From Luteimonas sp. ANT-B3E (GTDB lineage: Bacteria > Pseudomonadota > Gammaproteobacteria > Xanthomonadales > Xanthomonadaceae): 47,000 nucleotides of DNA. The notes under the pieces were generated by a model. It did not search any database, was not told where the DNA came from, and saw only the letters and a list, made by a program, of their open reading frames with translations. Positions 3,806 through 5,263 of this stretch are shown here, in pieces. The position numbers were made by a program, and so were the translations under genes. The stretch is taken from NCBI GenBank assembly GCA_001683895.1, contig LXQJ01000054.1:17434-64433 (forward strand), given 5' to 3'. Each line of letters opens with the position of its first letter. The first letter of the stretch is position 1.

Positions 3806-5263
3806 GTGACCACCACCACCACCGATGCCCCCGCAAGTCCCGAAGCGCCTGGCATCGCGACGCAGGCGCTGCGCGACGCGCGCATCGCCATCATCGGTCT
3901 CGGCTATGTCGGCCTTCCGCTCGCGGTCGAGTTCGGCAAGCAGTACGCCACCGTCGGCCTCGACATCAACGCCGCGCGCATCGACGAGCTGCGCCAGGGC
4001 TGCGACAACACCCTCGAGGTCGAGCCCGAGCTGCTGGCGTCGGCCACGCGCCTCAGCTTCAGCGCCACGCTCGACGCGATTGCGGACTGCAACGTCTACA
4101 TCGTCACCGTGCCCACGCCCATCGACAGCGCCCGCCGGCCGGACCTGACCCCGCTGGTCAAGGCCAGCGAGGCGATCGGCAGCGTGCTCAAGGCCGGCGA
4201 CACGGTGATCTATGAGTCCACCGTATACCCCGGCTGTACCGAAGAAGTCTGCGTGCCGATCCTGGAGCGCGTCTCCGGGCTGCGCTTCGACAGTAGTGCT
4301 GCCAAGAGCGCCCCCACCCCAACCCTCCCCCGCTTCGCAGGGGAGGGAGCAGCTGCCGACGCCACTGCCGGTCTCCTTCCCCCGCCCGCGTGGGAAGGCC
4401 GGGATGGGGGCGCCCCTGGCACGTTCACCTGCGGCTACTCGCCCGAGCGCATCAACCCCGGCGACAAGGCCCACCGCGTCACCAGCATCCTCAAGGTGAC
4501 CTCTGGCTCCACCCCGGCCGCCGCCGACTTCGTCGACGCGCTGTACCGTTCCGTCATTACCGCCGGCACCCACAAGGCCAGCAGCATCAAGGTGGCCGAG
4601 GCCGCCAAGGTCATTGAGAACACCCAGCGCGACCTCAACATCGCGCTCGTCAACGACCTCGCCATCCTGTTCAACAAGCTCGGCATCGACACGCTGGAGG
4701 TGCTGGAAGCCGCCGGCACCAAGTGGAACTTCCTGCCGTTCCGCCCGGGCTTGGTGGGCGGGCACTGCATCAGCGTCGACCCGTACTACCTCACCCACAA
4801 GGCGCAGGAAGTCGGCCACCACCCGGACGTGATCCTCGCCGGCCGCCGCACCAACGACGGCATGGGCGCGTATGTCGCCAACGAGGTCATCCGGCTGATG
4901 GTGCGCAAGGGCATCAACCCGGTGCGCGCACGCGTGCTGGTCCTGGGCCTGGCCTTCAAGGAGAACTGCCCGGACCTGCGCAACACCCGCGTGGTCGACA
5001 TCATCGACGCGCTGCGCGGGTACTCGGCGCAAGTGGACGTGCGCGACCCGTGGGTCGATGTAGCGGAAGCGCGGCACGAGTACGGGCTGGAGCTGATCGA
5101 TGCGCCGGAGGCGGGCAGCTACGACGCGGTGATCGTCGCGGTAGGCCATGACGAATTCCGCACGCTGGGCGCCGACGGCATCCGCGCCTTCGGCAAGCCC
5201 GACAGCGTGCTCTACGACGTCAAGTACATACTGCCGCGCGACGCCGTCGACGGCCGGCTCTGA
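3806..5263 (+). CDS. UDP-N-acetylhexosamine 6-dehydrogenase (TviB/WbpO type) with an in-frame repeat insertion
   Basis: 485 residues from GTG 3806 (AAGGGA at 3792-3797). It oxidises C6 of a UDP-HexNAc to a uronic acid with NAD. Motifs: nucleotide-binding IIGLGYVGLPLAVEFG near residue 33, YESTVYPGCTEE, CGYSPERINPGDKAHR, and catalytic Cys321 in GLVGGHCISVDPYYL. The C-terminal domain begins near VLVLGLAFKENCPDLRN. Relatives are usually about 425-436 residues long; the excess is explained by residues about 168-203, a Pro/Ala/Gly stretch encoded by a palindromic repeat (4308-4413) between GLRFD and FTCGYSPER. All recognised catalytic motifs are intact. UDP-GlcNAc versus UDP-GalNAc specificity cannot be told from sequence alone. 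Confidence 0.9.
   Translation: MTTTTTDAPASPEAPGIATQALRDARIAIIGLGYVGLPLAVEFGKQYATVGLDINAARIDELRQGCDNTLEVEPELLASATRLSFSATLDAIADCNVYIVTVPTPIDSARRPDLTPLVKASEAIGSVLKAGDTVIYESTVYPGCTEEVCVPILERVSGLRFDSSAAKSAPTPTLPRFAGEGAAADATAGLLPPPAWEGRDGGAPGTFTCGYSPERINPGDKAHRVTSILKVTSGSTPAAADFVDALYRSVITAGTHKASSIKVAEAAKVIENTQRDLNIALVNDLAILFNKLGIDTLEVLEAAGTKWNFLPFRPGLVGGHCISVDPYYLTHKAQEVGHHPDVILAGRRTNDGMGAYVANEVIRLMVRKGINPVRARVLVLGLAFKENCPDLRNTRVVDIIDALRGYSAQVDVRDPWVDVAEARHEYGLELIDAPEAGSYDAVIVAVGHDEFRTLGADGIRAFGKPDSVLYDVKYILPRDAVDGRL
4308..4413 (+). repeat. Palindromic repeat element inserted in frame in the dehydrogenase gene
   Basis: A 106-bp element bounded by imperfect inverted arms (4308-4324 with 4397-4413, 14 of 17 matching). 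It contains two hairpins: CCCTCCCC/GGGGAGGG (4323-4330 with 4340-4347) and CCTTCCC/GGGAAGG (4375-4381 with 4392-4398). It resembles the C-rich/G-rich intergenic palindromes common in this bacterial family (from memory, not searched). It keeps the reading frame open and adds about 36 residues. Confidence 0.8.

Follow-up and report, generated by a model that had tools for sequence, protein, structure and literature searches.

A probable REPIN-like doublet of palindromes, from a class found with DUF559 nuclease genes, in frame within a loop of a predicted TviB-like dehydrogenase

A dispersed palindromic element was found to lie in frame within a predicted nucleotide-sugar dehydrogenase gene of Luteimonas sp. 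ANT-B3E, in the 47,000-nucleotide stretch of DNA that was analysed (referred to here as the window). The element is probably a REPIN-like doublet that was inserted into a permissive loop of the TviB-type dehydrogenase and survives as protein since both the reading frame and the fold tolerate it. It would belong to a class that accompanies genes for DUF559 nucleases and not those for REP-associated tyrosine transposases (RAYTs). The features concerned, in window positions except for the last line, are listed below.

3806..5263, plus strand: predicted TviB-type nucleotide-sugar (UDP-N-acetylglucosamine) C-6 dehydrogenase gene bearing the insert (485 aa; from the frame and the domain and model matches)
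4289..4423, plus strand: expanded loop, residues 162-206 (approximately 3 residues in ordinary orthologues)
4300..4421, no strand assigned: REPIN-like doublet of ~122 bp, a pair of oppositely oriented REP-like units with their tags on the outside and imperfect 34-nt outer arms
4308..4347, plus strand: unit A, consisting of the tag GCGCCCCCACCCCAA and the hairpin 4323-4333/4337-4347
4375..4413, minus strand: unit B (reverse), consisting of the hairpin 4375-4385/4388-4398 and a tag at 4399-4413 (GCGCCCCCATCCCGG in minus-strand reading)
Contigs C36:3989-4148, C36:15403-15513, C18:14-151 and C18:572-827 of the same genome: further copies of the element, intergenic or overlapping a gene end

The dehydrogenase reading frame was shown to be free of stop codons from 3695 to 5263, and profile searches matched all three domains of the enzyme (PF03721, PF00984 and PF03720). 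Residues K268, N272, C321 and D325 are among the columns that were invariant across 40 aligned sequences, including that of the window. These observations bear out the initial annotation, which had described an in-frame insertion of a palindromic repeat that leaves the reading frame open and the motifs intact. Against the TviB model NF011729, the product scored 595.2, barely above the cut-off of 592, and it is best named a predicted, intact-looking TviB-like UDP-N-acetylglucosamine C-6 dehydrogenase. On its 3' side, the gene is followed by a toxin-antitoxin pair (PIN and Phd/YefM, respectively; 5294-5949), which is located between the dehydrogenase gene and an NAD-dependent epimerase gene of a presumed polysaccharide locus. 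Elsewhere in the window, the adjacent ORFs 977-1432 and 1518-2144 appear by eye to be paralogue-like, each with a proline-rich tail that includes PPVSR at its end.

The interval from SGLRF to FTCGYSPER comprises 45 residues, compared with approximately three in ordinary orthologues, and the spacing from STVYPG to YSPER is 73 rather than 31 residues, corresponding to a net gain of 42 and not to the approximately 36 added residues first estimated. The insert had also been placed after the NAD domain, whereas it is located inside this domain, the PF03721 match ending at profile position 142 of 187. Sequence alignment with the solved relatives 4r16 and Cap5O revealed no expansion at the site (the aligned blocks are 4 and 11 residues apart, respectively). 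In this enzyme fold, the insertion site would be a turn at the surface that joins a helix to a strand, and the encoded Pro/Gly/Ala-rich stretch would, as judged from alignments, form a disordered surface loop. Comparison with orthologues, a check that had been proposed initially, showed that the inserted residues are not common to them: the insert was missing from all 29 other dehydrogenase loci read in the genus. This result rules out sequence shared among orthologues as an explanation (0/29) and agrees with the proposal that a repeat has given rise to protein sequence, as a dispersed palindrome codes for residues here.

With regard to the architecture of the element, the inverted outer arms (4300-4333 and 4388-4421) are 79% complementary over 34 nt and the two internal hairpins possess arms of 11 nt with 91% complementarity each; both structural features were therefore present as first described, while the length of the element was measured as ~122 bp instead of 106 bp. 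DNA folding of positions 4292-4425 gave a z-score of -2.72, with 2 of 200 shuffled sequences folding equally well. Within 4300-4421, neither a GTAG or CTAC tag nor a CGTC tag was found; GACG is present in the spacer between the units. A search for an Rfam identity returned two matches far under the gathering scores, which were taken as chance. The window element is free of stop codons in all six frames. Furthermore, 51 doublet copies were shown to have a mean of 4.65 open frames out of six, compared with 3.08 following shuffling, and 16 of them were open in all six, indicating that many insertions of such doublets would keep a frame open, given a fitting length.

Half-element matches were identified at six places in the genome of origin (86-94% identity over 47-56 bp), along with longer or weaker matches with identities down to 69%. 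The 94%-identical pieces elsewhere in this genome (E = 4.7e-15) place the element beyond chance resemblance, and the host-genome search that the initial annotation had suggested thus showed the element not to be unique. Within the window only, a half-element pattern with three mismatches gave two matches, compared with 1.48 expected by chance. Across the genus, the element was matched at E<=1e-6 in 29 of 52 genomes, the genome of origin among them, and eight contained more than 20 matches each, these per-genome counts being lower bounds as at most 16 candidates were scored per genome.

The context of the copies was surveyed in 60 loci, comprising 58 stretches from the element-rich related genomes G050, G028, G019 and G047, drawn from the capped set of scored candidates, and two from the own genome; a copy was called intragenic-like when GC3 and an open frame indicated coding sequence to either side. 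The loci contained 75 element clusters: 68 lay between genes or at the edge of one, six were too close to the end of a locus to be classified, and one was intragenic-like. Intragenic copies of the element are rare, and the 68 intergenic or gene-edge cases among 69 classifiable other copies match the earlier description of a repeat of a kind expected between genes. The one intragenic-like doublet (L362:1461-1571, in G028:C1) lies in frame in a gene for a 2-oxoacid dehydrogenase E2 component, in the linker between the E3-binding and catalytic domains. The window copy, tested apart from this survey, likewise scored as intragenic by the same open-frame and GC3 criteria.

To assess the loop in other species, dehydrogenase sequences were compared in an alignment of 109 rows and 419 core columns, the rows of which are not fully independent because some genomes are present twice (e.g. 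L038 and L108, 100% identical over 3834 bp). All insertions of at least three residues were located in this loop (22 of 109 rows, up to 66 residues), while the longest insertion elsewhere in the enzyme was a single residue. The 109-row set omits the L046-L057 group (~72% identical) but keeps L183, which is identical to L055, and a 111-row tree keeps L046 and L055; loci L054, L105, L121 and L295 were dropped because their motifs could not be parsed, L105 and L295 together representing genome G130. Ordinary spacing was observed in 98 of 120 parsed rows. The family sample is skewed towards long loops because the query is itself long-looped.

In genus g51, which includes Thermomonas haemolytica (locus L192 equals L109), a dehydrogenase match was present in 24 of 25 genomes; the loop was long in 13 (spacing of 38-87 residues), ordinary in ten and expanded with a frame break in one (G130). 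At the locus of the latter (L295, G130:C7:1900-4200), the frame is broken in the expanded loop, near a run of C, by either a sequencing error or a real lesion. For the window's own genus, which includes Luteimonas padinae (L038, from G022, equals L108), 17 further close orthologue loci (L029-L045) were compared, 15 of which had ordinary spacing, while those of G016 and G024 had gained seven residues. A wider scan of named genomes yielded long loops in two of the best 80 of 589 relatives, namely Thiocapsa sp. KS1 (L156) and Lamprocystis purpurea (L185), with spacings of 80 and 84 residues, respectively, and other dispersed palindromes. On a quick protein tree of 111 rows, the long/short label was shown to change at least 12 times, with four changes forced by well-supported branches.

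Repeats that are dispersed in the same genome were found in 8 of 11 loops tested, i.e. those of the window, G383, G298, G325, G212, G144, Thiocapsa and Lamprocystis. The G298 insert had 43 own-genome matches including itself, 32 of them to one part of the insert and ten to another. The inserts of G373, G137 and G242, genomes in which a joint query gave 3, 7 and 7 matches, respectively, were not counted as repeats since no second own-genome copy was found among the matches listed. A ~70-bp part of the L089 loop (G373:C57) was matched at one to four places in each of G137, G298, G242, G212 and G325, with 76-85% identity, among the matches listed. The inserted sequences themselves vary: the G298 loop (L091) holds CGTC followed by a palindrome, the Thiocapsa loop GTAG followed by a palindrome, and the Lamprocystis insert contains GCTCCCACGC...GCGTGGGAGC. 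The loops of L088, L090 and L196 contain GTAGGAGCGCACC-type stretches of the GTAG type, and those of L089 and L188 possess tails like those of L087 and L286; by resemblance only, these five loops look REP-derived as well. This single dehydrogenase site is thus occupied by five or more distinct repeats, of which some belong to one general class. This re-use of the loop is best read as survival, with most other in-gene insertions having been purged, rather than as targeting.

On contig C18 of the same genome, element copies at 14-151 and from 572 bracket a gene for a DUF559 (Vsr-like) nuclease (256-564; L222), a possible partner of the element. In total, 65 DUF559 loci (L202-L231 and L306-L340), taken best first, were read: 30 of 56 in the window's genus (g1), all six in g51 and 29 of 64 in a 150-genome sample of the phylum. 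The 89 control loci comprised the best 30 of 56 Y1_Tnp matches, the best 30 of 38 PIN matches and 29 dehydrogenase loci. A narrow element motif (at most three mismatches, within 1500 bp) was found at 8 of 30 DUF559 loci in g1, compared with 0/30 Y1 and 0/29 dehydrogenase loci. When a general hairpin pattern was applied (CYYTCYCC...GGRGARRG within 500 bp, drawn up after the DUF559 flanks had been viewed), REP-type hairpins were present on both sides of 38 of 65 DUF559 genes (17/30 in g1, 5/6 in g51 and 16/29 in the phylum sample) and of none of the 89 controls (PIN 0/30, Y1 0/30 and dehydrogenase 0/29). Hairpins on one side were seen at ten, zero and five DUF559 loci in g1, g51 and the phylum sample, respectively, and at one PIN, no Y1 and one dehydrogenase locus. 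A motif-free test, the cut-offs of which were also chosen after the flanks had been viewed, scored pairs of palindromes that lie on opposite sides of the gene, within 600 bp, and can be aligned with one another. Such pairs were found near 18/30, 5/6 and 17/29 DUF559 genes (g1, g51 and phylum, respectively), compared with 0/27, 0/6 and 0/29 in distal windows of the same loci; the controls gave 8/30 near and 2/30 distal for Y1, 0/29 near and 2/29 distal for dehydrogenase, and 1/30 for PIN. Among the 40 DUF559 palindrome pairs, 25 were inverted.

Furthermore, how abundant the element is in genomes of the genus correlates with DUF559 and not with Y1 transposases, according to statistics that ignore shared ancestry and use the lower-bound match counts given above. 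DUF559 was present in all 20 genomes with at least three element matches and in 15 of the 32 others (p = 3.5e-5). The association was weaker at a threshold of one match (24/29 versus 11/23, p = 0.016); at a threshold of ten, the figures were 13/13 versus 22/39 (p = 0.0045). For Y1, the corresponding comparison at three or more matches was 13/20 versus 20/32 (p = 1.0), with p = 0.16 and p = 0.75 at thresholds of one and ten. Spearman coefficients for element abundance were 0.64 with DUF559 and 0.19 with Y1, shared ancestry again being ignored. In G325, which possesses DUF559, the loop palindrome and one adjoining the DUF559 gene share 95% identity over 58 bp, and more copies lie on the opposite side of that gene. 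DUF559 is missing from 21 of 25 g51 genomes, among them G212 and G383, which have repeated palindromes in their loops and contain many such repeats; DUF559 is therefore not required for such repeats to persist.

Spread of the element by an IS200-like RAYT, as for classical REPs, appears quite improbable, despite the REPIN-like doublet architecture, the single Y1_Tnp gene in the own genome and the palindrome pairs of other kinds that flank 8/30 Y1 loci. The element was found at none of the 30 Y1 loci read (of 56 PF01797 matches) and REP-type hairpins on either side at none of them, the element-rich genomes G007, G036, G038 and G047 lack a PF01797 match at E<=0.001, and the element lacks a GTAG tag. 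A RAYT origin of the window element was consequently left unsupported by the loci read. The Y1 transposase genes of the genus (L232-L261) are often flanked by GGGGTCAGAGT- and GTAGGAGCG-type repeats, which are distinct from the window element.

Other explanations concern the loop rather than the mobility of the element. The loop may be an ordinary linker of variable length that expands in many ways, the palindrome being just one of these neutral insertions and REPs having no special part. We regard this as rather doubtful, since 8 of the 11 long loops tested (of 22) hold a dispersed own-genome repeat, the five further loops noted above look REP-derived by resemblance, and hairpins with arms of at least 8 occurred in 8 of 19 longer loops, compared with 29 of 950 mononucleotide shuffles. 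It is nevertheless consistent with the absence of hairpins with arms of at least 7 from 12 of 22 long loops, with expansions of 7-13 residues that contain no recognised REP in G016, G024, G180 and G214, and with a G242 loop stretch that has no other own-genome copy among the matches listed; REP entry may also come after short expansions. Selection could instead keep the insert, whether for a peptide that is of use or for a role as RNA or DNA (an mRNA hairpin, or control in the presumed polysaccharide operon). The strength of the hairpins and the re-use of the same loop by different repeats would fit such a role, yet most enzymes manage with ordinary spacing (98 of the 120 parsed rows), the fold z-score is just -2.72 and the repeats vary between species, so that no shared peptide is conserved; we consider selection improbable. 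An assembly or binning artefact is least credible and would be very surprising: the assembly (G000) is a draft of 2.81 Mb in 57 contigs with 89% completeness, and repeats may give false joins, but one continuous dehydrogenase in a single frame spans the insert on a 64-kb contig and long loops occur at the same place in other genomes, some of them single-contig (G298 and G196).

If the preferred explanation of a REPIN-like doublet in a permissive loop is correct, the element would have been copied into many sites, a DUF559 nuclease being the suspected agent. A candidate route would involve cutting or nicking at extruded hairpins, followed by repair copying. Copies would then persist where the host fold tolerates them, and the insertion in the window may be recent and neutral, or nearly so.

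The DUF559 link is the boldest lead of this study. Tentatively, and with somewhat less than even confidence, we propose that a third large REP class (approximately a CCCTCACCCCAA tag together with CCCTCTCCC...GGGAGAGGG) has DUF559 (Vsr-like) nucleases as its partner, in the way that GTAG REPs have RAYTs. The nucleases would spread or maintain the repeats of this class throughout the phylum, and these and other REPs would repeatedly enter one tolerant loop and create protein sequence. VsrA of Caulobacter, a DUF559/Vsr-like protein that carries the same domain as the palindrome-flanked genes described here, has been linked to cytosine methylation and DNA damage in a paper whose main text does not mention palindromes (PMC12907096). 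A link between DUF559 and palindromes or REPs was not found in the searched part of the open-access literature. If DUF559 indeed mobilises or maintains a REP class, palindromes that lack a transposase of their own would gain a candidate enzyme, and this domain of unknown function would be given a role. A single loop that accepts different mobile palindromes in several lineages also represents a natural series of insertion experiments, which makes it testable how often selfish repeats become protein, which folds permit this and how fast the resulting peptides decay.

Among known systems, Rickettsia palindromic elements (RPEs) are often located inside genes. The likeness of the window element to RPEs lies in an in-frame palindromic insert that has turned into protein while the motifs of the gene remain intact. 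The RPE analogy drawn in the initial annotation therefore held for this mode of insertion and not for membership: the R. conorii RPE has one end tagged CGTC (PMC3733652, main text), whereas the window element has no CGTC-tagged end, only 1 of its 69 classifiable other copies is intragenic-like, and the bacteria are different.

Intragenic REPs, i.e. small palindromes in coding genes, have already been published (Di Nocera et al. 2013, BMC Genomics 14:522, PMC3733652). As described in the main text of that paper, recB of Xanthomonas campestris and Xanthomonas oryzae carries different REPs at about one site, intragenic REP dimers or groups code for 20-30 residues, flexible linkers or loops are proposed as neutral sites, and the transposase for the CGTC REP class is left open. 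The window element is an intragenic REP in the same sense, having intergenic own-genome copies, lying wholly inside a gene and being absent from homologues. It differs from those described in PMC3733652 in lacking a GTAG or CGTC tag, in its acceptor, a dehydrogenase loop that is not mentioned as an acceptor in the main text of that paper, and in the presence of at least five different repeats at one site. Palindromes in this dehydrogenase loop were not found in the searched part of the open-access literature.

REPINs or BIMEs, with which RAYTs are associated, reportedly consist of an inverted REP pair around a spacer and occur as many dispersed copies, a description attributed to Bertels and Rainey in 2011. 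The window element resembles them in comprising two inverted REP units and a spacer and in being dispersed. It departs from GTAG REPs with a RAYT in both the end tag and the flanking of Y1 genes (0/30), and from REPINs and BIMEs in belonging to a class associated with DUF559 genes and not with RAYTs.
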